From Ricordea florida (taxonomy: Eukaryota > Cnidaria > Anthozoa > Corallimorpharia > Ricordeidae): a stretch of DNA of 64,000 nucleotides. This document shows positions 11,753 through 36,943 of this stretch, one piece after another. The stretch covers positions 18,985,061-19,049,060 of the forward strand of contig OX453281.1 of assembly GCA_949710005.1 (NCBI GenBank), read 5' to 3'. The translations under genes were made by a program, and so were the position numbers. Position 1 is the stretch's first letter. Every line of letters starts with the position of its first letter. The notes beneath the pieces were generated by a model. That model did no database searches. It had not been told where the DNA came from and saw only the letters and a program-made list of their open reading frames with translations.

Positions 11753-11796
11753 TGTGAAAGCAAGACCGTTAAATAAGATTAGTATAAATACTCAAG

Positions 11797-12684: not shown

Positions 12685-12702
12685 TTATGTTAAGGGCACA
12701 CA

Positions 12703-12727
12703 TTTGTGACATGGACCGTGTCACAAA
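12703..12727. promoter_or_regulatory. 25-bp dyad, copy 1
   Basis: TTTGTGAC, nine-base spacer, GTCACAAA. It lies between the left terminal gene and the polymerase ATG. Three sister copies at 27,791, 28,381 and 29,115 share the same arms (TTTGTAAC in those) and the same spacer length. It could bind a dimeric regulator or act as an RNA hairpin. Confidence 0.75.
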
Positions 12728-12780
12728 AGTTGAAACATGGTTGTCTTAGAGATTACAAATGCCAGTATACAATTCGTGCC

Positions 12781-15700: not shown

Positions 15701-16659
15701 ACGAAGCTTTGAAACAGTACTTGTCGTTGGGGTTGGAGTTAACCAAAGTTCACAGAGGGATCAAGTTCGAGGAGTCGGAGTGGCTGAGGTCCTACATTGA
15801 TCTAAACAATAGCCTGAGAGCCAGGGCTGAGAATGATTTCGAAAAGGACTTCTTCAAGTTGATGAACAACTCAGTGTTTGGCAAGACCATGGAGAACATT
15901 AGGAAGAGGGTGGACATCCAGTTGGTCACTGAGGAGAAGAAAGCGCGTAAGTTGATTGTGAAGCCAAACTTCCATCACAGGAACATCTTCTGCGAGGACC
16001 TGACTGCCTTCCACATGAAGAGAACGAAATTGCTCTTTGATAAGCCCATTTACTTGGGGCTGTCCATTCTGGATCTTAGCAAGACAGTCATGTACGATTT
16101 CCATTACAGGTACATAAAGCCCAAGTATGGGGAGAAGGCCAAGTTATTGTTCACAGACACGGATTCTTTAGCTTATGTGATAGAGACTGAGGACTTTTAC
16201 AGAGACATCAGTCCAGATGTGAGGGCTAAATTTGACACCAGCAACTACCCCACGGAGCATCCATCCGGGATTGAGACCGGAGTGAACAAAAAGGTCGGAG
16301 GGATGTTCAAAGACGAGGCTGGCGGTGAACAGATCACGGAATTCGTGGGTCTGAGGGCCAAACTGTATGCTTTCAAGACGGACAAGGAGAAGGAAGTCAA
16401 GAAGTGTAAGGGAGTTAACAAGGCAGTGGTCAGCAAAAGCATAAGTTTCCAAGATTACAAGACTTGCCTTTTCAGTAGCCAATCACAGAGACGGAAGATG
16501 AACACCATAAGGAGTCATAGCCATGACATCTACACTGAAACCATCAACAAGATTGCATTATCACGCGAGGACGATAAACGTGTGATAATGGAAGACGGGG
16601 TAAACACGTATGCACATGGTCATTTCAGGACGCTGGAAGGGGGTGATTCGGTGTCTTGA
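12781..16659 (+). CDS. Protein-primed family B DNA polymerase with SAP-like N-terminus
   Basis: 1,292 residues from the first ATG; the open frame extends upstream to a GTG, across the dyad. Two SAP/HeH-like repeats (about residues 2-30 and 38-75, each 'LTVKxLRxIAKxxGV') are followed by a basic linker. A C2H2-like finger ('CDNCLNSF...HMEYC', about 423-443) and a C/H cluster of HNH/endonuclease VII type ('HCHICEGELG', 'DHCHFTGRYRGAAH', about 581-614) come next. The 3'-5' exonuclease motifs are ExoI 'YADFECF' (D near 482), ExoII 'LSGYDSHLF' (D near 633) and ExoIII 'YLKTDVILLADVF' (near 796). The polymerase motifs are A 'YLDANGLYG' (near 892), B 'KLMNNSVFGKTM' (near 1029) and C 'FTDTDSLAY' (near 1127). 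All catalytic residues are present. It overlaps the convergent integrase gene by 40 bases. Confidence 0.95.
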   Translation: MENLTVKDLRSIAKRAGVSVRGFRKAEMLTALSDIQPENLTVKILRTIAKKSGVRGSGSMRKEALINAVGAPRVVEANVPVPGPVRPIRTRPARASYGRAVAAARREIVQTTEWIRSNVRDPNKRAITRRLRKAAAAVRREEPEFFVPERHETALRGFLRTYIVNGRTGYDPPSFLDKVRTPFYVLMLNLRKPFKLKCILSCGFARRNPQDNRVIERSQGHFHSLMETVTASTDTYALFDSIKAKLGELVQKYENEHSGWVFESVIDFRIHLNPFQPFSGTSYIKLPHKLAAKKAIVNVKNEDQECFKWAVTSAVFPREKDAGRLNREMRENSEKLDWSGIEFPVAALSTTQIDRFERQNPYGINILGYENGEPTLIRRSNKSGVTKINLLLISNEETNHYCWIKNMSRLIEYNKNEHARFYCDNCLNSFNSKKSLDDHMEYCLNNESVKVQMPMEEDGSPKYITFKNHRRKMQVPFVIYADFECFTEKLDTCLPDDRDSFTNQYQKHKPSGFCYLIKCFDDEVFEPKLVMRTANSPEDDIPQMFQESLEEDIKKIYDQFKSERKLVMKNSDHRKHGKATHCHICEGELGADKVIDHCHFTGRYRGAAHKKCNLEFSTPKFFPVIFHYLSGYDSHLFIKKMGVSEGKIDCIPLNDEKYISFTKEIVVEKFMKKDDDGKEKEVQIKRTIRFVDSFRFMASSLARLVDNLPRESLPNLSRYYEGTNFDLLARKGVFPYDWFDGFDKLQVSSLPPKDEFYSILYDTDISDDDYQHAGNVWETFGMRSFRDYHDLYLKTDVILLADVFENFRGVCMENYGLDPAWHYTAPGLAWDATLKITKVELELLRDPDMLIMVENGIRGGISTISTRYGKANNRYMNNYNPRLPTKFITYLDANGLYGYAMTKALPTHGFEWMSDQELVDWRNHPCILEVDLEYPLELHDLHNDYPLAPERVDVDGVVKLVPNLRAKKKYILHHEALKQYLSLGLELTKVHRGIKFEESEWLRSYIDLNNSLRARAENDFEKDFFKLMNNSVFGKTMENIRKRVDIQLVTEEKKARKLIVKPNFHHRNIFCEDLTAFHMKRTKLLFDKPIYLGLSILDLSKTVMYDFHYRYIKPKYGEKAKLLFTDTDSLAYVIETEDFYRDISPDVRAKFDTSNYPTEHPSGIETGVNKKVGGMFKDEAGGEQITEFVGLRAKLYAFKTDKEKEVKKCKGVNKAVVSKSISFQDYKTCLFSSQSQRRKMNTIRSHSHDIYTETINKIALSREDDKRVIMEDGVNTYAHGHFRTLEGGDSVS

Positions 16660-17609
16660 GGTACAAATTGAAGCTCTTCGCGAACGAATCCTCGTTTTGG
16701 ACCTCCACTCAAATAATACAAGACTGGTTGACCCGGTTCGATTATGGTTCGAGCTAAATCATAGACTTCAAGACTCCATATGGGGTCAGTAGCCCTTCGT
16801 TTGTCCCCACCTTCATCTTCACCCGGGGCATAAAGATACCTGACTTGAACATCTGGAGGTAATCTCTTCTCATTCAACCCCACAGGTCGCTTGTAGTCTG
16901 GAGTTTTGGTGTCAATCGAGTCCATTTTCAAAGCTTCGTCGGGCTCTTTACCAGTAATACGGGTGGCCTCACTGTTGAGGGTCTTCATGATGGCTGGCAA
17001 TCTATTCACCCAAACTGTGGATCGGGTATCACTAATCATCTCTTGAGCGTATTGATGGCTGAATAGCTTCTCACCGAGAGTCCTGTTGGCCCTCTCCACA
17101 AAGGCTTGAGCTCTATGATTCCCAGCTTCACTACGCTGGATTGTGACTTGATGCTTTTTCATAAGAGTTGTTACATCACCTTTGAATTCTGTTCCCGGAT
17201 CCACCATTAATGTTTGTGGCCACTTCAACTTACGGGAATAAATCCGTTGAAAGGCATTGGCAACTTCACCACTCTCCTTTGAGGTCAATGGTTCGGCATC
17301 CTTGTATCTTGACGCGATATCAATCACGACTAAGGCATAGCGGTATGTTTTTCTTCTCACTGTATCGTGAGGAAGAAACAACAAGTCCGCCTGATGGATC
17401 TGATTAGGCTTATTCACACTCCAATGTGGCCTGGGTATATACTTGGGGGCTGGGAGGTAAATTTGCCACAAGGCTTGCTTTTCCAACCACCCTTTGGCGA
17501 CCTTTTCACTAACTTTGGCTGCTTTGGCCAATTTGGGTATGGCTGAGTATCCTTTCCAGTATCCATCAGTGGAGTAGTATAATCGATTTAAAACGTTAGA
17601 ATCAGTCAT
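16620..17609 (-). CDS. Retrovirus-like integrase (rve family)
   Basis: 329 residues. The rve core has D75 ('HQADLLFLP'), D137 ('LMVDPGTEF') and E172 ('FVERANRTL'), a D,D35E spacing typical of retroviral and Polinton integrases. An N-terminal helical segment precedes it. The C-terminal region, with 'RYLYAPGEDEGGDKRRATDP' and 'GPKRGFVREEL', is a likely SH3/chromo-like DNA-binding part. It inserts the element and generates the 5-bp target duplication. It is the only minus-strand gene in the left two thirds of the element and overlaps the polymerase tail to tail. The Polinton 2 homologue at 43,219 is closely similar throughout. Confidence 0.95.
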   Translation of the reverse strand: MTDSNVLNRLYYSTDGYWKGYSAIPKLAKAAKVSEKVAKGWLEKQALWQIYLPAPKYIPRPHWSVNKPNQIHQADLLFLPHDTVRRKTYRYALVVIDIASRYKDAEPLTSKESGEVANAFQRIYSRKLKWPQTLMVDPGTEFKGDVTTLMKKHQVTIQRSEAGNHRAQAFVERANRTLGEKLFSHQYAQEMISDTRSTVWVNRLPAIMKTLNSEATRITGKEPDEALKMDSIDTKTPDYKRPVGLNEKRLPPDVQVRYLYAPGEDEGGDKRRATDPIWSLEVYDLARTIIEPGQPVLYYLSGGPKRGFVREELQFVPQDTESPPSSVLK

Positions 17610-17635
17610 TTACAAACAGAACATAAGCATTTAAA

Positions 17636-18847
17636 ATGGCTTCTATACCAAGCATTCTTGATGTCAATCGCGTTCCAAGGACTCGCGAAGGGTTGAAGGC
17701 TATGACGTCATTAAATAGGGTCACACTAAACCCATCGTCAGCCGAACCTGGTGAGACGCTGTACATTGAAATACCAAGATTGAGTGAAAATCTTGTGATT
17801 GTGCCCGGTAGCGTCTACATAACCTTTGACATGGTTGTGACCGGTCACAAAGACAACACTCTTGTCAATAATTTGGGAAGGAATCTGATTTCACAGTATA
17901 AGGTTCTATTTGGTGGTGAAGTCGTCGAGGATCTTGGTAGATTTGATTTGTTCAAGACTTACCACGACTTGTTTCTGACCACCGAAGACCGTGAGAATAG
18001 ATTGAGACAGGGCATATCCAATGTCAACATAAGGAAGATCAGGACCAATGCGGGGAACAAAGATACGTCAAAAGCCAGGGACAATACGTTAGCTGTGATT
18101 CACAACACTAGGTACGCCATTCCATTAGATCACACAATCCTCAAAGATCATGGCGTATTTTACCCAATAGGATTACCCCATCCACTTAGATTTGAGTTGA
18201 CTTTGGCCAAAGTCTCTGATGTTGTGGTTTATTCAAACCGTGAAGCACCACCTGATTACAAATTAATAAACATGGAGATGGAGTACCAGTGCATATCAAG
18301 CAATTCTTTGGCAAGTCAGGCTGTTGGGTCCTACACAAATGGGAAAGGGTTCACGTATGAAAAGGTTCTTCTTCACAAAACCTTCACAATCTCTGAGGCG
18401 AATGATTCTGTGATAAATCAACACGTCAATGTGCCGAGGAGATCCATGACTGGCATACTATGTCTTTTCACCGCCCCTCATGCAGAAGGCCTCAGGGACT
18501 CTGAGATGTTTGCAAACCCGAAGATCACGTCAGTCAAGATTGACATAGATGGAGTGCCCAACCAAGTTTACTTGAAAGGTATGATGGCGACTGATTTGTG
18601 GCAATCCATCATTAAGCGAGTCGGTCTTAGTGATTCAATCGATGAATCTGATTTCTACACAGATAAGTTCGCTTTGTGGATTGACCTGAGGACTTATCCA
18701 GACAACGACATCCATGGAAGTGGTTTGTACATTCACGCTACTCGTGATGGGGTGACTTTGGAAATTAAGAGAGAAAAGGTAGGCACTAGAGTTCTTACGT
18801 GCCACATGTTTGTTATTGCTGACGCTGTCATATATGAGCATTGTTAA
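17636..18847 (+). CDS. Candidate major capsid protein (double jelly-roll type suspected)
   Basis: 403 residues, beta-rich and soluble, with no membrane segment. A conserved start 'LNRVTLNPSSAEPGETLYIE' leads into 'VPGSVYITFDMVVTG'. The Polinton 2 homologue (41,725) keeps these and also 'PRRSMTGIL', 'DGVPN', 'KFALWIDLRT' and 'DNDIHG'. It is followed directly by the packaging ATPase, as expected for a morphogenesis block. I recall this family as widespread in cnidarian virus-like elements. The double jelly-roll assignment rests on position, size and beta-strand spacing and was not tested by structure. The 511-residue protein at 25,831 is the alternative capsid candidate. Confidence 0.6.
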   Translation: MASIPSILDVNRVPRTREGLKAMTSLNRVTLNPSSAEPGETLYIEIPRLSENLVIVPGSVYITFDMVVTGHKDNTLVNNLGRNLISQYKVLFGGEVVEDLGRFDLFKTYHDLFLTTEDRENRLRQGISNVNIRKIRTNAGNKDTSKARDNTLAVIHNTRYAIPLDHTILKDHGVFYPIGLPHPLRFELTLAKVSDVVVYSNREAPPDYKLINMEMEYQCISSNSLASQAVGSYTNGKGFTYEKVLLHKTFTISEANDSVINQHVNVPRRSMTGILCLFTAPHAEGLRDSEMFANPKITSVKIDIDGVPNQVYLKGMMATDLWQSIIKRVGLSDSIDESDFYTDKFALWIDLRTYPDNDIHGSGLYIHATRDGVTLEIKREKVGTRVLTCHMFVIADAVIYEHC

Positions 18848-18880
18848 TGGCGGCCTAAAGGAGATTAGATATTAAGCCGC

Positions 18881-18924
18881 TGTATGGTTTTCTTCTCACG
18901 GTGTCATGAGAAGAAACATCAGTC
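18881..18924. other. Intergenic hairpin resembling a piece of the integrase gene
   Basis: TTCTTCTCA...TGAGAAGAA forms a 9-bp inverted repeat at about 18,889-18,914. The surrounding 44 bases resemble 17,342-17,387 inside the integrase gene in the same orientation ('tttttcttctcac', 'gaagaaac'). It may be an integrase relic or a structured leader between the capsid and ATPase genes. Confidence 0.4.
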
Positions 18925-18950
18925 TAAAGGGATTCATGTAATGAGTAACG

Positions 18951-19586
18951 ATGAACGAACTCAGAGATTTGATTCCATTCAATTGCATCATCACTGGTCC
19001 CACGAATTGCGGAAAGACCCAATACATAGTGGAACAGCTTCGAGGTCACTATAGGCAAGTGTTTGATTATATTGTGTTGATTTGCCCAACATATGCCCAC
19101 AACAAGACGTATAGAGGTTTTGCCAAAGGGGACAAACGATTCTTTGTCTTGTCGCCAGATGCCAGTGATCATGACGAAATCAACAATTTGTTGATGGACT
19201 GCGAATCGTTCTTCTCGGGTACCAATACGCTCCTAATTTTGGACGACTGTGCCGTTTCCAAGGATCTGAAGAATAGGTCCAACAAATTCATCGGTTTGGC
19301 CTTCTCTGGGAGACATGTAGGGATATCAGTGTGGGTTCTCACTCAGCAACTGACATCCATAGCCAAACCATTCCGTGAAAATGTAGCTTGTGTGGTCTCA
19401 TTCCACAATCCATCTCAAACGGCGATGAAGATGCTTTTCGAGGAGTATGGCGGGGACCTGGATGCTGAAACGTGGAAGAAACTCAAGAAGCATCTTATGA
19501 ATGAAAAGTATGCCAGGCTATGCTTCTCCCTCAGACATCCATTCCAAAACTATTTAGAAATACCGGCTCTAACGGTACAACCATGA
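18951..19586 (+). CDS. A32-like DNA packaging ATPase (FtsK/HerA superfamily)
   Basis: 211 residues. Walker A 'GPTNCGKT' lies at about residues 16-23, and Walker B 'TLLILDDCA' near 93-101 with Asp98/Asp99. 'SGRHVGISVWVLTQQLTSIAK' is a sensor-like segment in which the Thr/Gln-rich strand follows the Arg. The length fits the compact A32-like ATPases of Polintons and NCLDV relatives. Expected role: pumping genomic DNA into the capsid. It follows the capsid gene, and its stop overlaps the next ATG as ATGA. The Polinton 2 homologue is at 41,058. Confidence 0.92.
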   Translation: MNELRDLIPFNCIITGPTNCGKTQYIVEQLRGHYRQVFDYIVLICPTYAHNKTYRGFAKGDKRFFVLSPDASDHDEINNLLMDCESFFSGTNTLLILDDCAVSKDLKNRSNKFIGLAFSGRHVGISVWVLTQQLTSIAKPFRENVACVVSFHNPSQTAMKMLFEEYGGDLDAETWKKLKKHLMNEKYARLCFSLRHPFQNYLEIPALTVQP

Positions 19587-20131
19587 CAACGCCCGAAGAA
19601 ATCATGAATGGTCAAACTGCAGTGGTGGAACAATCACCGCCAACCATGAACGTCGATGATGTGAAAGCCAAAAGAGAAGAGCTGGCAATACTAGCCTCTC
19701 TAGGCTCTAGCAAGGAGTATCTTGGCGTTCAGATGGCTCTAGGTGACGTCCACAGATTGTCGGATAGGGACGTAGAGAAGTACTACAAGAGGTACAAGAT
19801 GGTGTCTGGTAAGAATGTGGCTGACGGGCTAATTGATCCTCCTTTACATCTATTGGCCAGACTAGTCAACTGGTCTCTTAGTAGTTACGGCAGAATAGAT
19901 GATCCAGATGCTTTGGTAAAGGATTTGAAGAACAACCAGTTGATCAAGCAGTCGCTGTCAGAATATTCTGGTTCAATCGTGGTACATGGTGGTGCGATTG
20001 TTACGTTATTGATAATAGCCATTACCGCTCTCAAGCATTTCAGACTAAATGAGCCTAGTCCCCCAGCTAGATTGTACGACATGGCTAACACGGATGAAGA
20101 TTGGGGTGAGGGCGTCGACACTGTTCGGTGA
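19583..20131 (+). CDS. Conserved single-pass membrane protein after the ATPase
   Basis: 182 residues from the ATG that overlaps the ATPase stop. The N-terminal part is charged and helical ('ELAILASLGSSKEYLGV', 'LSDRDVEKYYKRYK'), with one membrane segment near the C-terminus ('GAIVTLLIIAITAL'). The Polinton 2 homologue at 40,427 keeps 'ELAILASLG(T/S)(T/S)KEYLGV' and 'DVEKYYxRY'. The function is not known to me. By position it is a structural or membrane-morphogenesis protein. Confidence 0.75.
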   Translation: MTTPEEIMNGQTAVVEQSPPTMNVDDVKAKREELAILASLGSSKEYLGVQMALGDVHRLSDRDVEKYYKRYKMVSGKNVADGLIDPPLHLLARLVNWSLSSYGRIDDPDALVKDLKNNQLIKQSLSEYSGSIVVHGGAIVTLLIIAITALKHFRLNEPSPPARLYDMANTDEDWGEGVDTVR

Positions 20132-20193
20132 AAAAATTGAAATTGGAAGTGGAAGGGGTCGGTGTGAAGGCATACTCGAAAGAGATCGAAAAC

Positions 20194-20998
20194 ATGTCTC
20201 AGAGAAAACACTCAACTTCCTCAAATGGTTCAATGACGTCACTGAAAACTCATTTCGTACCCATCGACGTAGATGACTTCAATTGGGACTCTATTGAGAT
20301 AGAAGCTCCAGTGAAGAGAGGCAACTACTCCTTTTCGAGACTTATTGTTCGGAATGATGATGGTGAAGCCGTCAATCTGGCTTTCCAATTGGCTGACCAA
20401 AACATATTTGGTCTCAAATGGAACAATGGTCACGAGAACAAAAAGCCCAAGTCTGGTATCAAGTTCAACTATTTGTTGCGTGACGATGAAACTCGAGCCA
20501 GGTTTGACATCATCACGGATAAAGTCGCCTCTGCCATTGAGAAATTCTACGCTGACGAGGTTATTTGTAAGAAAATGCCCAAATTGAGCAAAATTCAGCT
20601 CGAAGTCATGAAGAAGGGAGACACAATTGATCTGATCAAACCACCGTATTCCACAAACGAAAACGGAAATACATGTGTATACCCGGAATTCAACACGAGT
20701 GGAAGTGGATCCAACCTGAAAAACCACACAGCATTCATTGGTCGAAAGAATAAAGGTTGGATTGATTACATTCCCAAAGATGCAGAGGATGACAGTACAA
20801 AGGCATGTGCAACAGTCTCTGAGAATCAAAGGGATAACATTTGGTGCCTGTGGGACTGCTATGGGGTGCATGGCCAACGTGAAGTACGTGGTCCAGGCCA
20901 TTAAACTAAGAAAGCCAATAGAAGAAGTAAAGGTTGCAGAGGAAAATGTTTTCGCAGATATGCCTGACGACGAAGACTCCGATGAAAATGATGAGTAG
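20194..20998 (+). CDS. Probable nucleic-acid-binding protein with acidic tail, frame break near 20,850
   Basis: From ATG 20,194 one frame runs to 20,904 with mixed beta-like text: 'VPIDVDDFNWDSIEI', 'FSRLIVRNDDGEAVNLAFQL', then 'DTIDLIKPPYS'. A second frame, convincing from about 20,840, gives 'GCMANVKYVVQAIKLRKPI' and a strongly acidic end 'DMPDDEDSDENDE'. An acidic C-terminal tail is typical of viral single-strand DNA-binding proteins, so that role is possible. The change of frame may be a frameshift or a misread. Polinton 2 has no counterpart. Antisense frames here are shadows. Confidence 0.5.
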
Positions 20999-21109
20999 GA
21001 ATGTTGGTAGTAAAAGGGTAAGAAGAAATAGTGGTTGGATGGGATCTGACAGTTTCCTAGTATGCAACTTACTAGGAGACTTAAAAATAAGAATAAGTTA
21101 ACTCACAAC

Positions 21110-21502
21110 ATGTCTGAAGAAACGAGTCAAGTTGAGCAAATCACTAGAGAGCCTTCTGTCAAAACCAAGGTCAAAGACCCCAAGAGAGTTCAGGCTGGTA
21201 AAACATTATCGGAAAAGAACAAGAGGGCCAGAGAGGCTTTGAAACGTGAAGAGGAAAGGGAGAAGAAAGAGAGTGAAAAGGAAGAGGATAAGGGTAGTTC
21301 TGGTGATGGAAGAGGTGGTTGGATGCCGTCCCAACCTATCTTTTTAGCCATAGGTGCAATTGGCCTCACCGCCTATGGACTGTGGACCAACTATCGAGAT
21401 AGGATACCTGACTTGCATTTTCCATCGAACCCCAAAGTCACAGAAAGTCAACCCGTGGCCAGCAAAGCAAAGGAAACCAATTTAAAAGATGACGTGTTAT
21501 GA
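21110..21502 (+). CDS. Small membrane protein, 'VEQITR' family
   Basis: 130 residues. It starts 'MSEETSQVEQITREPS', then has a Lys/Glu-rich helical stretch, a membrane segment ('PIFLAIGAIGLTAYGLWTNY') and a hydrophilic tail after 'RIPDL'. The Polinton 2 homologue (39,941) shares 'VEQITRDP', 'VEAGKKLAE' and 'RIPDL'. The start at 21,110 was chosen because the homologue begins MSEE. Probably virion-membrane or internal; function unknown. Confidence 0.75.
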   Translation: MSEETSQVEQITREPSVKTKVKDPKRVQAGKTLSEKNKRAREALKREEEREKKESEKEEDKGSSGDGRGGWMPSQPIFLAIGAIGLTAYGLWTNYRDRIPDLHFPSNPKVTESQPVASKAKETNLKDDVL

Positions 21503-21508
21503 TCCAAA

Positions 21509-21730
21509 ATGACGGAGAATAAGCTCGTGAAGACAGTTACTGGCTCTGCAGTGCTCGTTGGATTGTCAACTGGGATGGGCTGGCTTGGCAAAAAGGCTCT
21601 TCGGGAGTCGTTCATCGGTGACCCATCGACCAGTATCATGAACTATGGCAAATGGGTGCTTGTGCTGTCTATAGCCATGTATGTCAAAACCTATTTAGAG
21701 GATCAGAAGATACTACCCACAAGTGATTGA
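21509..21730 (+). CDS. Small two-helix membrane protein, 'ENKLVKTVT' family
   Basis: 73 residues with two hydrophobic helices ('SAVLVGLSTGMGWLG' and 'WVLVLSIAMYV'). The end is conserved: 'KTYLEDQKILP'. The Polinton 2 homologue at 39,686 is over half identical by eye. Tight packing with both neighbours suggests co-expression. The size suggests a minor virion protein; this is inference. Confidence 0.8.
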   Translation: MTENKLVKTVTGSAVLVGLSTGMGWLGKKALRESFIGDPSTSIMNYGKWVLVLSIAMYVKTYLEDQKILPTSD

Positions 21731-21732
21731 AC

Positions 21733-22131
21733 ATGCCTTTGAGTTTCACTGAAGCAATTAAAGATGCTCAAACTGATTACATTATTGATCTTATGAGACA
21801 CATAAGACAATCATACGTTAATGCTTTGCATAAAGCTGAGTATCTCTCTGCTGAGAGAAATTTAGAGGTTGAAATCGACCCCATGCCTAGTAACAGAGAG
21901 CTTATCGAATGGTATTTCAAACTTGGAAATAGACAATTTCATCGTGCCAAGGAGCCTAAACTGGTAGGCTATCTTTTGAGAGATATGGATAAGGAACTTG
22001 ATGAGACCAACAAAAAGTCGGAAAAGGCTACAGAACAACCACAACGAGGCTCACACCCATTAGTATCCTTTATGTTTGGGGTGTTGGCATCGATCGCGTT
22101 ATACACAGGCTTGAAATTGTTTAAGAAGTAG
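21733..22131 (+). CDS. Tail-anchored small protein, Polinton 1 only
   Basis: 132 residues from ATG 21,733. The body is helical and charged ('MRHIRQSYVNALHKAEYLS', 'ELIEWYFKLGNRQFHRAK'), with one C-terminal membrane segment ('VSFMFGVLASIALYTGLKLF'). No family recognised and no counterpart in Polinton 2, although the neighbours on both sides are conserved there. Confidence 0.65.
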   Translation: MPLSFTEAIKDAQTDYIIDLMRHIRQSYVNALHKAEYLSAERNLEVEIDPMPSNRELIEWYFKLGNRQFHRAKEPKLVGYLLRDMDKELDETNKKSEKATEQPQRGSHPLVSFMFGVLASIALYTGLKLFKK

Positions 22132-22147
22132 GACAACAAATGGATAA

Positions 22148-22552
22148 ATGGCGACTATAGCAATCATGCTTGGAGGGGCAGTCCTCAACGCAACGGCCTT
22201 CATTGGTGGAAACTATTTAGCAAAAGTCATTAGCGGCTCGTCTTCGGCCGATCTCCAACTTGAAAGGGAAAGGCATGACAAAGCCATGGAGAAGTACCAG
22301 AAAGACTATGCTGCTTATCAAGAGAGACGAATGGCTTATATTGACTTTGAGAACCGTAGGAAGGGTGATGAGAACCAAGCCTCTGAGAACATATCAAAGA
22401 CGGACGAAGCGCTAAGATTGTACAATCAAATGGGCAATCCCCCACAATTCTCTAACTATTACCGACCCAATTCAGATCAAAAGACTGGGGAAATGGTCTA
22501 CGTTTCTGGTGGGATGTTAGCCTTGGGATACATTGCCAGCAAATGGATATGA
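22148..22552 (+). CDS. Small membrane protein, 'MLGGAVLNATAF' family
   Basis: 134 residues. The hydrophobic N-terminus 'MLGGAVLNATAFIGGNYLAK' is followed by a charged coiled-coil region ('HDKAMEKYQKDYAAYQERR') and a second hydrophobic end ('VYVSGGMLALGYIASKWI'). The Polinton 2 homologue (39,262) is closely similar, including 'YQKDYA', 'SKTDEAL', 'YYRP' and 'GGMLALGY'. I recall the same family elsewhere in cnidarians. Likely a virion component. Confidence 0.8.
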   Translation: MATIAIMLGGAVLNATAFIGGNYLAKVISGSSSADLQLERERHDKAMEKYQKDYAAYQERRMAYIDFENRRKGDENQASENISKTDEALRLYNQMGNPPQFSNYYRPNSDQKTGEMVYVSGGMLALGYIASKWI

Positions 22553-22788
22553 TGACTCCCCACGAGTATGTCAAGTTGGTGGGGACCAGAGCTGAGCAAT
22601 TGCGGATGGGTAGTAAACCAGTGATAGACTGGCCATTTGATTTCAACCCTATAGCCATTGCCAAGAGTGAACTCAAACAGCGCGTTTTACCCCTTGCTAT
22701 AATTAGAAAGATCCCGGACTGCAATTCAAAGACTGGTTTCCGCGACGAGATATGGGACCCAAACGACATGCACATACGAGACTTTTAA
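22543..22788 (+). CDS. RPB6-like RNA polymerase subunit
   Basis: 81 residues. The pattern 'HEYVKLVGTRAEQLRMG', then 'NPIAIAKSELKQRVLPLAII', then 'RKIPD' matches the RPB6/omega fold as I know it: Y-x3-LLGxRA-xQ, then a P-x2-IA-x-KEL helix and a P-(L/I)-x-IxRxLPD strand. RPB6 stabilises RNA polymerase assembly, and homologues occur in eukaryotes, archaea and large DNA viruses (poxviruses, asfarviruses and others). The ATG overlaps the end of the previous gene by 10 bases, so it is part of the same array. No counterpart in Polinton 2 and no other polymerase subunit in the window, so it would have to act with a host or helper-virus enzyme. The acidic N-terminal extension of cellular RPB6 is absent. 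Confidence 0.8.
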   Translation: MDMMTPHEYVKLVGTRAEQLRMGSKPVIDWPFDFNPIAIAKSELKQRVLPLAIIRKIPDCNSKTGFRDEIWDPNDMHIRDF

Positions 22789-22823
22789 AATCAGTTTAGA
22801 AGTTTCCATATTCAACTTCAAAT

Positions 22824-23762
22824 ATGGCAACTGCTTATGATGATCCTGATTTGGATCCGACTACACTAAATGAGGCAGGTGATGGTGATGATGGTGATGA
22901 TACACTTTACATGAGCCCAATCATAAAAACGTCCACCACTCACCTCCCTGATGATGCAGAGGAAGAAACCTCGTTCGGTGGTGTTGATGAAACTCGGCCC
23001 TTACTGATAGAAGAGATGGAAATAGAACAAGATGAAGCCTGGGCCAAGATTAGATCAAGATTCCCCAAAGTTGATACGTCCAAGTTTACAGCCAAACTGA
23101 ATGAATTCAAACAAGTAGTCGTCAAATTGTTTAGGAAAGGATCAAAACCTTATGTGTTATTCAAAGGTGACGATGAATTGAATGATAGATTGCCAGACAC
23201 CATCAAAAACAGTCTAGGCCCAAGAGCAGAAGACGTCCTGGAAGCCAATGATGGTGTGATCGCTGAGAAAAAGGGATTACTCACCAAAATGAAGGAGACG
23301 CTAAGATTCCAAAGAGATAAGCCTCTGAAGACCCCAGAAGAAGAAAGTAACATAGAGACTCTGGAGAGGGAAATCGGTGAGCAGGAGGAGGAGATAGCCA
23401 ATTTGGAGGGTGAGAATGAGAGAATCCAGGAACGAATGTCATTGCGGGATCGTGTAAAGGCCATCTTCAAGAAATACGGATTCACAGTCTTTGCTGTCAT
23501 GAGTGCCGTTGGAGTGGTCATTGGTGTCATAGTCTCCAACCTCTCCAAAGGGCTATCGAAATTGGGCAAGGGTGTTGGTGATGGGCTAAAAAACCTTGGG
23601 AAGAAACTTGGCGAATTGCTGCCTGGGATGGTGGGCGCTATTGTAAGCTTTCTGTTCAAGACTGCTGGAGAGGTCGTCTCATTCCTGGGGAAACATGCCT
23701 GGCTGTTAATAATGGCGGTTGTGCTTTACTTCATAGAAGAGTTAAAAAGGAGACGTACATGA
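22824..23762 (+). CDS. Coiled-coil protein with C-terminal membrane-active module
   Basis: 312 residues. An acidic disordered N-terminus contains 'DDTLYMSPI'. A coiled coil follows (about residues 140-210, 'LEREIGEQEEEIANLEGENE'). The C-terminal module is highly conserved: a hydrophobic helix ('FAVMSAVGVVIGVIVSNL'), Gly/Lys-rich amphipathic repeats ('LGKGVGDGLKNLGKKLGELL'), then two further hydrophobic helices ending 'HAWLLIMAVVLYFIE'. The Polinton 2 homologue (37,969) has a longer coiled coil and nearly the same module. It resembles membrane-lytic or membrane-shaping virion proteins in design, which is inference. Confidence 0.8.
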   Translation: MATAYDDPDLDPTTLNEAGDGDDGDDTLYMSPIIKTSTTHLPDDAEEETSFGGVDETRPLLIEEMEIEQDEAWAKIRSRFPKVDTSKFTAKLNEFKQVVVKLFRKGSKPYVLFKGDDELNDRLPDTIKNSLGPRAEDVLEANDGVIAEKKGLLTKMKETLRFQRDKPLKTPEEESNIETLEREIGEQEEEIANLEGENERIQERMSLRDRVKAIFKKYGFTVFAVMSAVGVVIGVIVSNLSKGLSKLGKGVGDGLKNLGKKLGELLPGMVGAIVSFLFKTAGEVVSFLGKHAWLLIMAVVLYFIEELKRRRT

Positions 23763-23947
23763 ATCAAATGAAGAGCTATTGTGTCAAAGAGAAAAAGCTG
23801 ACTGATTGTGTGCCTGGTAGTGAAACCTTGACCAAAACAGCCAAAGGAAGGCCGATGATGAAGTGTAAATGTTCCAGCTGCGGCATCATCAAAACTCGAT
23901 TCCTCTCAGAGGCTGACTATAGAAGTTTAAAGATGTTGAAGAAGTAA
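23759..23947 (+). CDS. DUF5679-like zinc ribbon
   Basis: 62 residues; its ATG overlaps the previous stop as ATGA. 'MKSYCVKEKK', then 'GRPMMKCKCSSCGIIKTRF', fits the small DUF5679 ribbon (YCVKCxxK...GRxxxxGxCxxCGxxKxRF). The second Cys of the first knuckle is Glu here, so metal binding may be altered. The family occurs in some large DNA viruses and Polinton-like elements, as I recall. No counterpart in Polinton 2. Confidence 0.7.
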   Translation: MNQMKSYCVKEKKLTDCVPGSETLTKTAKGRPMMKCKCSSCGIIKTRFLSEADYRSLKMLKK

Positions 23948-23956
23948 TCAAACAAC

Positions 23957-24586
23957 ATGTTGAGCATTACTATGTACGCGTCTGAATCCAGGGTGTATTT
24001 GGATCCCCCATTGGAAGAGGTTCGGGAGATCCAACTCCTCGACTGTGTTGTACCCAAACGATTGGTGAACTTCAAGGATCGACAGAGCCTTCTCAAGGAG
24101 GATCGACCCATCATAATAATCCAGCCCGGTACATACTCTCTACGTGGCATACACGCAATCCTTCTGAACGATCCGGACAACGCCAAGCTGTCTATCATTG
24201 AGACTGGCACCGTTGATTACCTGTACTCCAACAAGACGTTCAACATTAAACTCACAAGAGGTCTCCAAGTTGCGTTGGGGGTGCCTGAAATCGTAATCCC
24301 TGGAAAGCTGTACCCCATCAACATACAGATTAAGGAGCCGCTGAGACTTTTGTGCAGTCTAGTGGACAATAAGTCGTCATATGCGAATGAGACTCTGTAT
24401 GGCGACCTCGTGAAACTCTCACCTTCCCACCTCCTTGCCAACATACCATCACAGGATTACCCGGCCATGCCAGTCCAAAACCATGAGAGTCTCCTAACCC
24501 ACTTCGACTTAAGTATCCTCGACATTGGATGGAAGAAACTTGATCTGAAGGGTTCTCCCATCACATTCAGTATACGATTCAGATAA
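23957..24586 (+). CDS. Penton-like minor capsid candidate
   Basis: 209 residues, beta-rich, no membrane segment. Landmarks are 'YLDPPLEEVREIQLLD', 'IQPGTYSLRGIHAILL', 'LQVALGVPEIVIPGKLYPI' and a final beta pair ending 'ITFSIRFR'. I recognise this family from many invertebrate Polinton-like elements, where a single jelly-roll penton or spike role has been suggested. That role is inference here. The Polinton 2 version (37,562) lacks about 75 central residues. Confidence 0.6.
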   Translation: MLSITMYASESRVYLDPPLEEVREIQLLDCVVPKRLVNFKDRQSLLKEDRPIIIIQPGTYSLRGIHAILLNDPDNAKLSIIETGTVDYLYSNKTFNIKLTRGLQVALGVPEIVIPGKLYPINIQIKEPLRLLCSLVDNKSSYANETLYGDLVKLSPSHLLANIPSQDYPAMPVQNHESLLTHFDLSILDIGWKKLDLKGSPITFSIRFR

Positions 24587-24617
24587 CATCTTAAAAGTAA
24601 GTGATCCTCAGTCCAAA

Positions 24618-25220
24618 ATGGGAGAATATAAGGCGATTTACCCTAACTTGGAAGCCACTGCGCCTCCTCCCACTGATGGACCATCATTCAGACTTCAACA
24701 ATGTTGCGATGCCCTGAACAAGCTAAAGTCTGAATTAAACCACTACGAGACAGTACTCAAAAAATACAACCGATCCAAGGGCACACTCATGAATGTAAGC
24801 TCGACCTGTGGTATAATGTCTTGCGTCTTGGCGGCTGGCGGTCTGGGCACGTCGCTTAGTGGTGTCGGAATCGTCGCATCTGTACCATTGGGTGTGGTGA
24901 GTGGTGTGTTTGTGTGTGCATCCATAGCGTGTCAACAGATATCCAAGAGACTGTCCCAGAAAGCTGTGAAGCATCAAAACACCATCACACTGGCCAGATC
25001 CAAGATAAACACCATTGAAGACCTGGTGTCCAAAGCCCTTCGTGACAATACGATCTCTGACTCAGAATTCTCGTTGATCGTGGACGAACTCAAGAAATTC
25101 GAAAAGCTCAAGGCCGAGATACGGGCTACGGCTCAAAAAAATGTGAGTGGAGAGGACCCATTGGTGCTGAGGCAGAGAGTACGCGAAGAAATCCTCAAAG
25201 AACTAAAAGAAGGACCATAA
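24618..25220 (+). CDS. Conserved helical protein with central hydrophobic hairpin
   Basis: 200 residues. Helical N-terminal half, then a Gly/Val-rich hydrophobic centre ('AAGGLGTSLSGVGIVASVPL', 'GVVSGVFVCAS'), then coiled-coil text ('KINTIEDLVSKALRDN', 'EFSLIVDELKKFEKLK'). The Polinton 2 homologue (36,944) is alignable end to end. I recall relatives in other cnidarian elements; no biochemical role is known to me. Leader motif 'tcttaaaagtaagtgat' precedes it. Confidence 0.75.
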   Translation: MGEYKAIYPNLEATAPPPTDGPSFRLQQCCDALNKLKSELNHYETVLKKYNRSKGTLMNVSSTCGIMSCVLAAGGLGTSLSGVGIVASVPLGVVSGVFVCASIACQQISKRLSQKAVKHQNTITLARSKINTIEDLVSKALRDNTISDSEFSLIVDELKKFEKLKAEIRATAQKNVSGEDPLVLRQRVREEILKELKEGP

Positions 25221-25260
25221 CTATCATATACGAGCAAAACAAATACTAGTGCAAAATAGA

Positions 25261-25290
25261 CTTAAAAGTTTGAACTCTTCTACCCAAATT
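25261..25290 (+). promoter_or_regulatory. 30-bp leader/promoter block, copy 1
   Basis: CTTAAAAGTTTGAACTCTTC plus 'tacccaaatt' lies just before the ATG at 25,299. It is repeated with one mismatch at 25,790-25,819, before the ATG at 25,831. The TTAAA core matches the motif before other Polinton genes. Confidence 0.65.
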
Positions 25291-25298
25291 ACTTGACC

Positions 25299-25772
25299 AT
25301 GGCGGCAATACCGATGGACTTAATATGTGATTTCAGAAACAAGTATCCAAAGGCTAAACGTTATAAATTCAGACTTCATAATGGCCAATCTGGAAGTTAC
25401 ATTGAGTGGGGCCATAATGGAAAAACAATCATGTCTGAGAACCCCACTGACAAAACATGTATTGATGATTTACCACCCTCTTTGGAAAGACTATTATGGA
25501 TAGATTTAGGATTGATTGATGAGTCACAACCTAGTGGCTTAAAAGTAATACATACTAATGACATAACCATGGGCAACAATCAAACTAAAAATCAATTGGA
25601 GTGTGACTTGGCAAAAGCAGAAGAAAATGTTGAAAGACTGGAAGAAAGTGTTGAAAGAGCAGAAGAAGACGTTGAAAACGTAAAACACACATTAAATCTT
25701 GGAGTAAAAGTTTTGACGGTGTGTGCTATGGTTGAAGTTTTTCGTGTCATGTCGTCATTCCTTCTTGATTAA
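25299..25772 (+). CDS. Short paralogue of the 511-residue protein, with coiled coil and membrane anchor
   Basis: 157 residues from ATG 25,299. The first 70 residues match the N-terminal module of the next gene ('DFRNKYPKA', 'YIEWGHNGKTIMS', 'PSLERLLWIDLGL'). A coiled coil ('AEENVERLEESVERAEEDVE') and a hydrophobic C-terminus follow. The shared leader and shared module show a duplication followed by replacement of the body. Polinton 2 has only the long version. Role unknown; a virion surface partner of the long form is possible. Confidence 0.75.
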   Translation: MAAIPMDLICDFRNKYPKAKRYKFRLHNGQSGSYIEWGHNGKTIMSENPTDKTCIDDLPPSLERLLWIDLGLIDESQPSGLKVIHTNDITMGNNQTKNQLECDLAKAEENVERLEESVERAEEDVENVKHTLNLGVKVLTVCAMVEVFRVMSSFLLD

Positions 25773-25789
25773 TCATATGCCTCTAATGG

Positions 25790-25819
25790 CTTAAACGTTT
25801 GAACTCTTCTACCCAAATT
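25790..25819 (+). promoter_or_regulatory. 30-bp leader/promoter block, copy 2
   Basis: Differs from 25,261-25,290 at one of 30 positions (CTTAAACGTTT for CTTAAAAGTTT). It lies 12 bases before the ATG at 25,831. Confidence 0.65.
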
Positions 25820-25830
25820 CTGGATAGAAG

Positions 25831-27366
25831 ATGGTCTTACTCGATGACTTCAAAAACAAGTATCCAAAGGCTGACCTTAACCAATTCAACTTTGTGAACG
25901 ATCAATATGGGGGGTACATTAGATGGAAAGATAACGGTATGACAGTCATGTCCTATGATGACCCCACTGGCAAGACATGGACTGATGGGATGCAACCAAG
26001 TTTGAAATCGCGACTCTGGACTGATCTTGGACTGGCCGCACTGAACTCATTCCCGCCAAGCTTAACCATGACCAAACGATACTACCCGATACCCGCCGTT
26101 GACTTTGACAGCCCCACCAGTAACACCACAAACATGCTGACCTCGCTGGACATATACGTGTCCAATACGAAGAAATTCAACGCCAAGATGCGTAATGTTT
26201 TCACCTCCCAAGTTGTAACTTTCAAGTTTGGGAAACAAAGTCGAAAGTGGTTGAACGCCCCCGACATGAACTACTGGCCACAACAACTGAACTTTGCAGT
26301 GTGGTGTGCGACCTCTGGCTGTGGGATTAGCCCCTTCGAGAGCCTCAACTACCCCAAAGTCGTGAATAGCTTCATCAAGTTTCATGTATACTTCACCATA
26401 AGACGAATATTGTATGAACTGAGCCTTCCACTGCCTGATGAGCAACCCTTTGTAATCAACAACAACCCTTACAGCAAGGTCGCTTATCAACGATTGTGCG
26501 CTGAATTTGGCATCTCAAACAACTCTGACTTCAGATGGAAAGGTGGACGAAACGGGGGTTTGGGTGACATCTTCATCGATTATGGGGCTGGGTACCATGG
26601 AGTAGGTGGAGGATACCAAAACGTCCATATGGTAAGAAACTATGACGATGGAGCTGACCAATGGCCTGGTGAAGGTGGCAATTTCGCTGATGATGGGGGT
26701 AAGAAGGAAAAGGGTGACCTCATTTCATTCATCCGTAATGACGACTTTGCTGATTACAAGTATGCTTGGTTCATACCAACGAGTGGCTATGGACTCACCA
26801 AGGCTGGGCTAGGCAGGTTGAATCGGTCTGCTGAAGCTTTTGTTTACTGTGTGTTGGGGGCTCAAGTCAACACTAGAAACTCGATTGTGGGCACTGGTGG
26901 TGGAGCAATTGAAACTCAACAAGAATTCTTGGCCCTGTTTGAGAGTAGTGTGATCGAGAACGACATATCGAGTTCGATCCAAAGGTACCAACTGGCCACT
27001 CAAGAGGCTAAATTAAGACTTGATTTGGCCATTGCTCCTGGAGTGTGGTTGATGCCTAGTAACATGATCATAAACACGGAGAGCGTGGTCGGGTATAACA
27101 ACAACCTCATGAAGGCCACTGATGGGATGAAATTTGGTGTCAACACAAACATAAACCTAGAGACTAAGACTGTGGGGATCAGCCATAACCTGGGCTCTTC
27201 CAAGGTCAAGTTACCACATGCAATTGTAGAGACTAAACGTTCAACAACAACACCAACGATCCATCCTCCCCCTGAAATCAAAGAAGAAACAAATACTAAT
27301 CATGAAACCAACCTGATACTGTTAATCGTTGGAGTTGGAATTGCCGCTTGGATGCTCTTCAGATAA
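25831..27366 (+). CDS. Large conserved structural candidate with C-terminal anchor
   Basis: 511 residues. The N-terminal module (1-75) has 'DFKNKYPKADLNQF', 'YGGYIRWKDNGMTVMS' and 'DDPTGKTWTDG'. A long mixed domain contains 'YWPQQLNFAVWCATSGCGIS', 'FHVYFTIRRILYEL', 'PFVINNNPYSKVAYQRLCAE', 'GAQVNTRNSI' and 'APGVWLMPSNMI'. A Thr/Pro-rich stalk leads to a final membrane helix ending 'AWMLFR'. There is no signal peptide. The Polinton 2 homologue (35,264) is very similar over the central domain and also ends with a helix and 'LFR'. I recall the central domain from many coral elements. Capsid-associated or surface protein are both possible. Confidence 0.75.
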   Translation: MVLLDDFKNKYPKADLNQFNFVNDQYGGYIRWKDNGMTVMSYDDPTGKTWTDGMQPSLKSRLWTDLGLAALNSFPPSLTMTKRYYPIPAVDFDSPTSNTTNMLTSLDIYVSNTKKFNAKMRNVFTSQVVTFKFGKQSRKWLNAPDMNYWPQQLNFAVWCATSGCGISPFESLNYPKVVNSFIKFHVYFTIRRILYELSLPLPDEQPFVINNNPYSKVAYQRLCAEFGISNNSDFRWKGGRNGGLGDIFIDYGAGYHGVGGGYQNVHMVRNYDDGADQWPGEGGNFADDGGKKEKGDLISFIRNDDFADYKYAWFIPTSGYGLTKAGLGRLNRSAEAFVYCVLGAQVNTRNSIVGTGGGAIETQQEFLALFESSVIENDISSSIQRYQLATQEAKLRLDLAIAPGVWLMPSNMIINTESVVGYNNNLMKATDGMKFGVNTNINLETKTVGISHNLGSSKVKLPHAIVETKRSTTTPTIHPPPEIKEETNTNHETNLILLIVGVGIAAWMLFR

Positions 27367-27392
27367 AAATTGAAATTTCCAATCCATAGATC

Positions 27393-27776
27393 ATGGCCTC
27401 GCAAATCATGACATCATTGGCAATCGTTGGCAGCCGGTACTTCAATGACATGTCCTTCTTGAAAGAGCAAATACGTAAAGCCCTCAAGAAATGGAAGCTG
27501 GATCTCTCCGACATACAATTGATTGTGTCTGGGGGTGCAGAAGGAGTTGATGAACTGGCCATGGATTTTGCCATTGAACAGGAGATCCCGTTCAAAGCGT
27601 TTGAACCTCAATGGGACTATTATGGCAAGGCGGCTGGGCCAATCCGCAATAGAGCGATCATGGAGTGTGCAACGCATGTATTGGCCTTGCCTTCTTGTAT
27701 TTACTCACCAGGTACCAAATCCGCTATTAAGTTGGCTAGGAAATACAAGAGAGAGGTTATAGTCGTTTATGTCTAA
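27393..27776 (+). CDS. SLOG-family protein (DUF2493/YspA-like)
   Basis: 127 residues. Features of the SLOG Rossmann-like fold are 'AIVGSRYFND' at the start, 'IQLIVSGGAEGVDELAMDFA', 'WDYYGKAAGPIRNRAIM' and 'PGTKSAIKLARKYKREVIVV'. GGAxGxD and GKxAGPxRN are the signature of DUF2493/YspA-like proteins, which bind nucleotide-derived ligands and occur in bacteria, phages and some large viruses. It is the last plus-strand gene of the element. No counterpart in Polinton 2. Suggested role: sensing or binding a nucleotide signal in the infected cell; this is inference. Confidence 0.85.
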   Translation: MASQIMTSLAIVGSRYFNDMSFLKEQIRKALKKWKLDLSDIQLIVSGGAEGVDELAMDFAIEQEIPFKAFEPQWDYYGKAAGPIRNRAIMECATHVLALPSCIYSPGTKSAIKLARKYKREVIVVYV

Positions 27777-27790
27777 TGATTAAGTGAACT

Positions 27791-27815
27791 TTTGTAACGT
27801 GAAGCGCGTTACAAA
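27791..27815. promoter_or_regulatory. 25-bp dyad, copy 2
   Basis: TTTGTAAC-N9-GTTACAAA, between the convergent SLOG gene and the CxxC-repeat gene. It could terminate both transcripts as a hairpin or bind a regulator. Confidence 0.75.
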
Positions 27816-27829
27816 TGTCTTTGGATACC

Positions 27830-28117
27830 TCACAAAGGCCCACACTTTCCACAATCCTTTCGTAGCTTAACATGACGACAAACATACTCTCCACTACACA
27901 AATGGCACATCCGTTTCTTATTATTAGTCTTAATTCTACCATGTTCACAATAACGATGAGGGCTACACGCTCGACAATTACCTCTCTGTCTATCGTGTAA
28001 GCAGATACCTGCGCCGCCGCAGTCTTTACAAGTATACCTTATCCTATCGTGTTGGCAAATACCAACACCGCCACACTCTTTGCAGATTGATTTTTGTCGA
28101 CCGTGCATGCAAGGCAT
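27830..28117 (-). CDS. CxxCGG-xxxC-xH repeat zinc protein
   Basis: 95 residues of tandem Cys/His units: 'CKECGGVGICQHDRIRYTC', 'CKDCGGAGICLHDRQRGNC', then two degenerate units, ending 'CGKCGPL'. This repeat (CKxCGGxxICxHxRxRxxC) occurs in proteins of giant viruses and some protists, as I recall. It probably binds zinc and perhaps nucleic acid. Polinton 2 carries the same unit fused to a SAP-like N-terminus at 34,763. On the minus strand a TATATATGGAAT sequence lies about 110-120 bases upstream of the ATG. Confidence 0.75.
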   Translation of the reverse strand: MPCMHGRQKSICKECGGVGICQHDRIRYTCKDCGGAGICLHDRQRGNCRACSPHRYCEHGRIKTNNKKRMCHLCSGEYVCRHVKLRKDCGKCGPL

Positions 28118-28380
28118 TTCTCAAAGCTGTACCCGATGGTAAAAACATCGACCATCAATTACAATTTTGTAATGTCACACACTCGCTCTGTTTTACTCCC
28201 ACGCTTCCGCTTTAATACCACGCCCCATTCCATATATACTTTTACGACGTAGCAACCGCGATTCTATAAATGGGTTTGATGTTTACTTTCTAAAGGCCCG
28301 TTTCTAACGTCGCTCAGGAATGTAATGACGTCAATGTAAAACCACTTTGAACCGGAAACTTCTTGACCTCTGTTATAGCT
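28118..28380 (-). promoter_or_regulatory. Intergenic region with TATA-like boxes
   Basis: No coding frame. Minus-strand 'gtatatatggaatggggcg' near 28,225-28,245 and 'tatagaatcgcgg' near 28,260-28,275 are TATA-like and lie upstream of the CxxC-repeat gene. Plus-strand text contains a CRE-like TGACGTCA at 28,326-28,333. Likely the promoter of the minus-strand gene. Confidence 0.4.
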
Positions 28381-28405
28381 TTTGTAACATGATCTATGTT
28401 ACAAA
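28381..28405. promoter_or_regulatory. 25-bp dyad, copy 3
   Basis: TTTGTAAC-N9-GTTACAAA, 15 bases beyond the stop side of the minus-strand gene at 28,420-29,058. It marks that gene's 3' boundary. Confidence 0.75.
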
Positions 28406-28419
28406 AATATCATGTATGA

Positions 28420-29058
28420 TTACCAGTGAGTCCCCCAACGCTCCTTCACCTCTTGAAACTCTTCCAAATCAAGACACCAGTATACAAACCTACTTGGGTG
28501 CCATGCAACAGACATTAGTTCTTCCCAAATTTCATTTCGAAAAGTACGTTTGTGTATGCCCTTCCAAGCCTCATGCAACAACTCGTCTTTGAAACTTATG
28601 TACACCGCAACTGAAAGATCCCCGATAAGAAGCTCGTCGACAGAATATGGCCGTTCGAGGTCAGCGTCAATCATACCAAACAGAGCTAACTCTTCAGCGC
28701 CCTTACATAAGTTCTCGGCTATGTCTTTCACAGACAACTTGTCAAAGTCTTTCGAATATTCATAGACAATCTCATTATCGTCAATAGGAAAATGGGCCAT
28801 GGTAAAAACAAGACGAACCTTCTCAACCAACCATGGGTTGAAACTAGAAACTATATATAATATGCTTAATTTGTGTTCTCCCAGAAAATCATTAACTCCT
28901 AACCGACCCACGTTGTCACATAAGAAGTCAAATGATGTTGGCATTCTCATCGCGTATGTGTAGGGCCTTTGAGGAATCATATACCAATCCCTACCAACGT
29001 CAGCCCTACGTATCAATCCCACAAATTCACTCGTCGTCTCGTCAATTCTGTAAGCCAT
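28420..29058 (-). CDS. Terminal paralogue protein with HPSRF-W motif (right, inner)
   Basis: 212 residues from the ATG at 29,058. The leader 'gattggcatacgcaaacgaaatgg' copies the TIR leader used by the other terminal genes. Its C-terminus 'EELMSVAWHPSRFVYWCLD' pairs with that of the left terminal gene. The body is alpha/beta without a recognised enzyme motif. The dyad copies at 28,381 and 29,115 bracket it. Probably arose by duplication of a TIR-linked gene. Confidence 0.75.
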   Translation of the reverse strand: MAYRIDETTSEFVGLIRRADVGRDWYMIPQRPYTYAMRMPTSFDFLCDNVGRLGVNDFLGEHKLSILYIVSSFNPWLVEKVRLVFTMAHFPIDDNEIVYEYSKDFDKLSVKDIAENLCKGAEELALFGMIDADLERPYSVDELLIGDLSVAVYISFKDELLHEAWKGIHKRTFRNEIWEELMSVAWHPSRFVYWCLDLEEFQEVKERWGTHW

Positions 29059-29114
29059 TTCGTTTGCGTATGCCAATCGCTACACACACCGACCTAAAAT
29101 ATCAATCTTATACT

Positions 29115-29139
29115 TTTGTAACACGATCCATGTTACAAA
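29115..29139. promoter_or_regulatory. 25-bp dyad, copy 4
   Basis: TTTGTAAC-N9-GTTACAAA, between the two minus-strand terminal genes: downstream of the outer gene's stop and upstream of the inner gene's leader. Confidence 0.75.
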
Positions 29140-29168
29140 AATGATCACTTAAAACTTGACTACCCCTG

Positions 29169-29600
29169 TTAAGTCCAGACACACAACTTGCCTTTCAACA
29201 CATCGTGAATTACATAACGTTGAAACTTGCCATAATCATCACTAGCAACCAAGTCATCACTAACATTCAAACGGATATTAACCGTGATGATTTCGTACTC
29301 GTCAGATCCATAATTAGCTACACAACGTTCATGAAAATCGCTACAAAGACCTTCAATGTTCAAAACGTCCTCCAACCTTCGTTTGGTTAATACTCTAAAT
29401 TTGTAGCCCAAATAGTCAAACGAAACGACCTCTTTGAAAAGTTCACAAATGTCGTTGGGTGCAAAATGTTGAAAGAACCCAACCATTTCGTTCCTCATCT
29501 TGGTAATGAAATCATCATTACGTAACCTGTTGCAATTGTAAAGAGCCAACTCCATATAATTGAAAGCCGGGTTGAAATCAATTTGCAGGTTTCTTTGCAT
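29169..29600 (-). CDS. Terminal paralogue protein (right, outer), short form
   Basis: 143 residues from ATG 29,600, which sits at the inner edge of the right TIR. The N-terminus 'MQRNLQIDFNPAFNYMELAL' is unrelated to the left gene after the shared leader. The HPxRF-W tail is absent, so it is either a shorter family member or a truncated one. No function recognised. Confidence 0.65.
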   Translation of the reverse strand: MQRNLQIDFNPAFNYMELALYNCNRLRNDDFITKMRNEMVGFFQHFAPNDICELFKEVVSFDYLGYKFRVLTKRRLEDVLNIEGLCSDFHERCVANYGSDEYEIITVNIRLNVSDDLVASDDYGKFQRYVIHDVLKGKLCVWT

Positions 29601-29882
29601 TTCGTTTGCGTATGCCAATCGGTGCAACCCTCGACACAAAATCCCACTTTAACAAATCGACCCCCACCCCCACCCCCCAAAGGACATCGACGATCCAAAC
29701 GAAAAAATCGACACGACGGAAAAAAAAAATCAAACAAGTCAAACTCGACTCGACCCAATTAATTATGCACAAACTTTTTTGACCACACCCATCCGATAAA
29801 ATCGACCACACCCAAAACCACGATTTCGCAAAAAAATCGATCGAAAATCAAATTGCGCCAGAACCGGCCTTTCCCAACTACT
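29598..29882. repeat. Polinton 1 right terminal inverted repeat
   Basis: Mirror of 11,797-12,081, identical as far as I compared it. Followed directly by TCAAG, the second copy of the target duplication. Confidence 0.92.
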
Positions 29883-29887
29883 TCAAG

Positions 29888-35209: not shown

Positions 35210-35263
35210 AAAAAACATTATGTTATATAACTTAAATTAAGAGTTACATAACAAAAAAGGAAA

Positions 35264-36817: not shown

Positions 36818-36943
36818 CTTATTCTTTATTTTTCTTCGATTAGATTAGGTCTTTAGATTTAGAATAAGATGAAAATTAATATACTTCTTTACCAACCCCC
36901 GCAAAACAATTACAACCCACATCAGTTCTTTCATATGATATTT

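Follow-up and report, generated by a model that had tools for sequence, protein, structure and literature searches.

An RPB6-like RNA polymerase subunit encoded by a Polinton-like element in the genome of Ricordea florida

The window, by which we mean the whole analysed stretch of 64,000 nucleotides, contains two related Polinton-like elements, the first of which (element 1, 11797-29882) encodes an RPB6-like protein in an array of capsid and packaging genes; as the earlier note had said, both a major capsid protein (MCP) and a Pox_A32-type ATPase lie upstream of it (Table 1). The terminal inverted repeats of element 1 measure 285 nucleotides, are 100% complementary and have the ends AG..CT, and the element is flanked by a 5-bp target duplication, TCAAG, on both sides. 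Polintons, or Mavericks, have a 6-bp target duplication and AG..CT ends; the ends of element 1 agree with this pattern, whereas both elements of the window have a duplication of 5 bp (TCAAG and TCTTA).

Table 1. Features of the two elements in the window
Feature	Position	Strand	Evidence and remarks
Left terminal inverted repeat, element 1	11797-12081	+	begins AGTAGTTGGG; TCAAG at 11792-11796
Large ORF, 1317 aa, PolB-like	12706-16659	+	SAP/Rho_N-like N-terminus, endonuclease VII-like stretch
rve-type integrase	16620-17609	-	PF00665, E 1.2e-7, 32.4 bits, cut-off 32.6 (0.2 under)
Major capsid protein (MCP)	17636-18847	+	Capsid_N PF16903, E 3.4e-5, 23.9 bits, cut-off 24
Packaging ATPase	18951-19586	+	Pox_A32 PF04665, E 1.8e-11, 44.4 bits, cut-off 22.8
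ORF22148, RPB6 upstream neighbour	22148-22552	+	stop overlaps RPB6 start
RPB6-like RNA polymerase subunit, 81 aa	22543-22788	+	translation, PDB phmmer, Pfam/NCBIfam, predicted fold, profile
ORF22824, RPB6 downstream neighbour	22824-23762	+	
Small cysteine-containing ORF	23759-23947	+	its ATG overlaps ORF22824 stop (ATGA)
511-aa element protein	25831-27366	+	no Pfam match; 72% identical to element 2 counterpart
SLOG-type protein (YspA/cpYpsA-related)	27393-27776	+	YAcAr PF10686, E 3.7e-10
Right terminal inverted repeat, element 1	29598-29882	-	TCAAG at 29883-29887
Element 2 (Polinton-like, related to element 1, no RPB6)	34368-48911	-	TCTTA at 34363-34367 and 48912-48916

Polintons typically encode a protein-primed type B DNA polymerase, a double-jelly-roll MCP, an adenain-type protease and a penton. 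The large ORF of element 1, which by eye and from its motifs we take to be a type B DNA polymerase, gave no polymerase match in Pfam or PDB searches and is 61-69% identical to its counterpart in element 2. For the MCP, no relative was found in phage records, nor in the PDB by profile, while the packaging ATPase also resembles the phage terminase-like phrog_2666. An adenain-type protease or a penton gave no Pfam match among the scanned ORFs of element 1, where a divergent one could be missed. The name Polinton, used in the earlier note, holds in a broad sense, on the strength of the terminal repeats, the rve-type integrase, the packaging ATPase and the capsid-type protein, but is qualified by the 5-bp duplication, the lack of a recognised protease or penton and a Capsid_N match slightly under the cut-off. 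Polintons, adintoviruses and 'meldviruses' have in common with element 1 terminal repeats, an integrase, a PolB-like ORF, a capsid-type protein and a packaging ATPase, with such replication genes being paired in meldviruses with pox- or mega-like virion proteins, as set out in the meldvirus description (PMC11071296); element 1 is set apart from them by its 5-bp duplication and its Capsid_N-type MCP. At both ends of element 1 there are, in addition, related ORFs (12040-12684, 28420-29076 and 29169-29639) with a LAYANEM-like start at the terminal repeat and no Pfam match.

The 81-residue product contains both of the RPB6 motifs quoted in the earlier note, and its identification as RPB6 is backed by sequence, profile and predicted fold alike. 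In a phmmer search of the PDB (E up to 10), all 27 matches were RPB6, its ASFV homologue or Rpo6/RpoK (best E 1e-7), ruling out a chance ORF. The match to PF01192 that the earlier note had proposed as a check exists and is the only Pfam match of the protein (E 0.001), but with 19.5 bits it stays below Pfam's 26-bit cut-off; NCBIfam subunit K models match up to 2.9e-11, again below their cut-offs. All eight rows of our alignment A1 match PF01192 (best 5e-6), and the match with profile A7 reaches 2.4e-13. The RPB6 helix pair and strands are present in the predicted fold (helices 6-21 and 36-45, strands 53-58 and 66-71), including the paired C-terminal strands, in a prediction that leaned on 58 alignment rows, 46 of them of cellular type. 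A first AlphaFold model, made with eight element-type rows only, was poor (pLDDT 63); 49 of the 50 rows listed by Foldseek for this model were RNA polymerase entries, and no RPB6 stood among the three chains of its VIA list. The residues T, E, RA, P, A, E and R are invariant in both the element and the cellular RPB6 alignments, and the core and C-terminal region are conserved over 12 family rows. Since the part of the human-type RPB6 chain that aligns with the protein is residues 54-127, the TFIIH p62-binding tail is absent. Sequence and modelled fold together support its membership in the RPB6/Rpo6/omega family.

In the 537.8-Mb host assembly, the window RPB6 yielded 374 first-look candidates, of which 150 were scored; all 150 match, with 85-100% identity among the matches listed, and none contains a stop codon. 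Broken copies were met with other queries, with stops in 2 of 13, 2 of 150 and 3 of 150 rows. We examined 44 distinct copies: 27 from the window-RPB6 list (the 8 best and 19 spread along the list, the window's own included), 16 from other queries, and L035; two more loci from other queries duplicated others and were left out. The slot between ORF22148 and ORF22824 is kept in 41 of the 44 (ORF22148 being a remnant in L040), while L009, L010 and L012 have the RPB6-like stretch in another position. In 37 of these 41 copies, the RPB6 ATG overlaps the ORF22148 stop, either as TAATG (21 copies) or as a TGA overlapped by the ATG (16 copies); in the remaining four (L028, L040, L046 and L050), ORF22148 is in two pieces or a remnant. 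Other viruses are known to use overlaps of the UAAUG type in termination-reinitiation. The median pairwise omega of RPB6 is 0.139 (27 copies, 350 pairs), compared with 0.087 to 0.530 for six neighbours. The RPB6 omega is biased low, because selecting copies by their protein score tends to pick up those that are intact and conserved. With 150 of 150 scored matches free of stops and this omega, a decayed passenger was rejected. A 711-aa frame at C2:242774 was considered as a fusion of RPB6 with another protein and rejected, since it seems to stem from an internal deletion that brought the PolB-like ORF and RPB6 together.

Element 2 contains homologues of many element 1 genes, among them ORF22148 (64%), but tblastn revealed no homologue in it of RPB6 (E up to 1), ORF20194, ORF21733, the small cysteine-containing ORF or the SLOG gene, which lies at the right end of the element 1 gene block. 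In this copy of element 2 the PolB-like ORF falls into two frames around 44690, which marks the copy as decayed. RPB6 was also missing from the best 30 loci with an ORF22148 homologue (element 2 included, about 3.4 kb each), where a single stray match had E 0.078. At these loci the place of RPB6 is taken by a gap, roughly 55 to 990 bases long, that extends to the next long ORF and holds no ORF of at least 50 aa common to all. A closely related lineage thus does without RPB6, which is therefore not essential to such elements. With the element 2 homologue of ORF22148 as query, the first look gave 4829 candidates, 150 of which were scored, whereas RPB6 queries gave 374 to 405. RPB6 carriers are thus probably a minority, though this is a rough figure that counts candidates before scoring. 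In the elements without RPB6 (L051-L080), the gap after ORF22148 is often long and AT-rich, and several have a recurring stretch before the next ORF (around 39211-39250 in element 2), which might be a promoter. A small, partly decayed lineage carries a C-terminally shortened RPB6-like ORF (L009 1450-1686, L010 1420-1677) between the homologues of ORF23957 and ORF24618; five copies of this type reach 55% identity (150 of 358 candidates scored).

The host's own RPB6 is a separate gene on contig C11 with at least three exons, whereas the element RPB6 is a single uninterrupted frame. Pairwise identities of the window protein to RPB6 from the host (37%), ASFV (34%) and a nematode (35%) do not discriminate between sources, all RPB6 compared lying at 34-40%. 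A 12-sequence family profile was matched at E up to 1 by 71 of 745 candidates; for 61 of these proteins, retrievable query rows included, the E-value was 2.7e-15 or better. They come from public contigs (sources jgi, lgn, ena and ncbi). In a tree of 74 rows and 109 columns, a branch with support 95/95.5 separates the element family, two ASFV rows and two NCLDV-like rows from 20 eukaryotic and six archaea-like rows. The split is weakened by the small number of columns, by long branches and by a bootstrap that had not settled; which rows count as NCLDV-like or archaea-like is our guess. IMG/VR scans returned no relative for RPB6 or MCP queries, nor for the two NCLDV-like rows. On the tree and the exon structure we rejected a captured host gene, and we favour a viral origin of the element RPB6.

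RPB6 is common to RNA polymerases I, II and III. In the human protein, the N-terminal tail is reported to bind the PH domain of TFIIH p62, and in Pol II strands 3-4 of RPB6 and one strand from the largest subunit together make up a sheet (PMC8754651). From the directly supported features of the system, namely the RPB6 core with its predicted fold, the stop-start layout, the conserved slot, the many stop-free copies, the low omega and the distinctness from the host gene, we arrive at the following proposal. The element RPB6, of presumed viral origin, would be produced late, together with the virion proteins, and be translated by reinitiation behind ORF22148. It would then take the position of host RPB6 in one of the nuclear RNA polymerases, of which Pol II is the likeliest, the retained core docking on the largest subunit; we favour such an exchange because the core is retained and the tail is missing. 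Because the element form is without the TFIIH-recruiting tail, the resulting polymerase would behave differently from one with the host form, in a way that might favour element transcription. We give this reading as a whole an even chance of being right. The presence of intact RPB6 in many related copies suggests that the element interferes with the polymerase by which it is transcribed. It is conceivable, if more tentatively, that a broad Polinton-like lineage, together with the related proteins on public contigs, uses a virus-derived RPB6 as an exchangeable subunit that removes the TFIIH docking tail and so makes the host enzyme element-biased. RPB6 is not known to bind promoters, so that an exchangeable subunit of the host polymerase fits a stand-alone RPB6 better than a promoter-binding adaptor does; the earlier note had envisaged an adaptor that draws a host or helper-virus RNA polymerase to element promoters. 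The further claim that no other polymerase subunits are present held for the 21 element ORFs scanned with Pfam (a set without 23759-23947), among which no second RNA polymerase subunit was found, but this absence is weak, as Pfam also misses the presumed DNA polymerase of element 1.

If the element RPB6 instead bound the largest subunit or an assembly intermediate non-productively, it would be a decoy or brake that lowers host transcription or antiviral expression and does not serve element promoters. A small, core-only RPB6 without the TFIIH-binding tail, and with no partner subunits seen among the Pfam-scanned element ORFs, would suit such a role; we nevertheless regard it as unlikely, given that conservation of the core and C-terminal region over 12 family rows exceeds the need of a docking fragment. 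Somewhat less probable in our view is that the protein joins an RNA polymerase supplied by a large DNA virus infecting the same cell, comparable to virophage-like parasites that use helper transcription. The grouping with ASFV and two NCLDV-like rows apart from eukaryotes (95/95.5) and the Capsid_N match of the MCP point in this direction, but the NCLDV-like label is a guess, the scan for relatives of these two rows found none, the identities to host, ASFV and nematode RPB6 do not discriminate, and the element has been integrated into the genome of an animal, with no helper in evidence.

The location of the RPB6 gene within the structural block also raises the idea of an exapted virion or assembly protein, in which the RPB6 fold would have a role outside transcription. 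Its position downstream of the capsid and packaging genes, among ORFs without known domains, some of them with hydrophobic stretches by eye, would agree with this, as would the stop-start overlap with ORF22148; the retention of the residues common to element and cellular RPB6 (T, E, RA, P, A, E, R) makes it improbable. That the gene is a captured host gene carried along as a functionless passenger, for which its absence from element 2 and 29 related copies and the few copies with stops (2/13, 2/150, 3/150) could be cited, appears very improbable in view of the 150 stop-free copies among 150 scored, the omega of 0.139, the uninterrupted frame as opposed to at least three host exons, and the identity of only 37% to the host gene.

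Unlike eukaryotic RPB6/RPABC2, the element protein has no N-terminal tail, and its gene is a single frame on a mobile element. The general assumption is that Polintons depend on host transcription, and a conserved lone polymerase subunit makes this dependence testable with a single 81-residue protein. If the exchange reading is true, this would be, to our knowledge, the first mobile element shown to remodel a host polymerase in this way. The RPB6 of large DNA viruses differs in its setting: ASFV, with its RPB6 homologue C147L, encodes its own transcription machinery (PMC10881513), whereas no other subunit was found here among 21 scanned ORFs. In the literature that we searched, no paper joins a Polinton with RPB6, or RPB6 with a virophage, and 'RPB' is absent from the main text of the meldvirus description, the closest precedent (PMC11071296); the search covered polintoviruses only loosely and coral PLV work fell outside it, so that a prior mention is possible. 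MCPs of Cnidaria have been reported outside the main Maverick-Polinton group (PMC10120064), and PMC12220804 refers to work on endogenous PLVs of stony corals. Through the element protein, Polinton-like elements may be connected with the RPB6 lineage of large DNA viruses, which would be one more gene exchanged between the two virus phyla, and a natural tail-less RPB6 could serve as a probe of the shared subunit's role in three polymerases. Loss of the tail is not general in the family: some relatives extend further at the N-terminus, with acidic and aromatic residues there, and may have kept a tail function. Three family members (P0127, P0140 and P0158) lie on contigs of 418, 176 and 534 kb, which could be genomes of giant viruses or else eukaryotic contigs into which elements have integrated.
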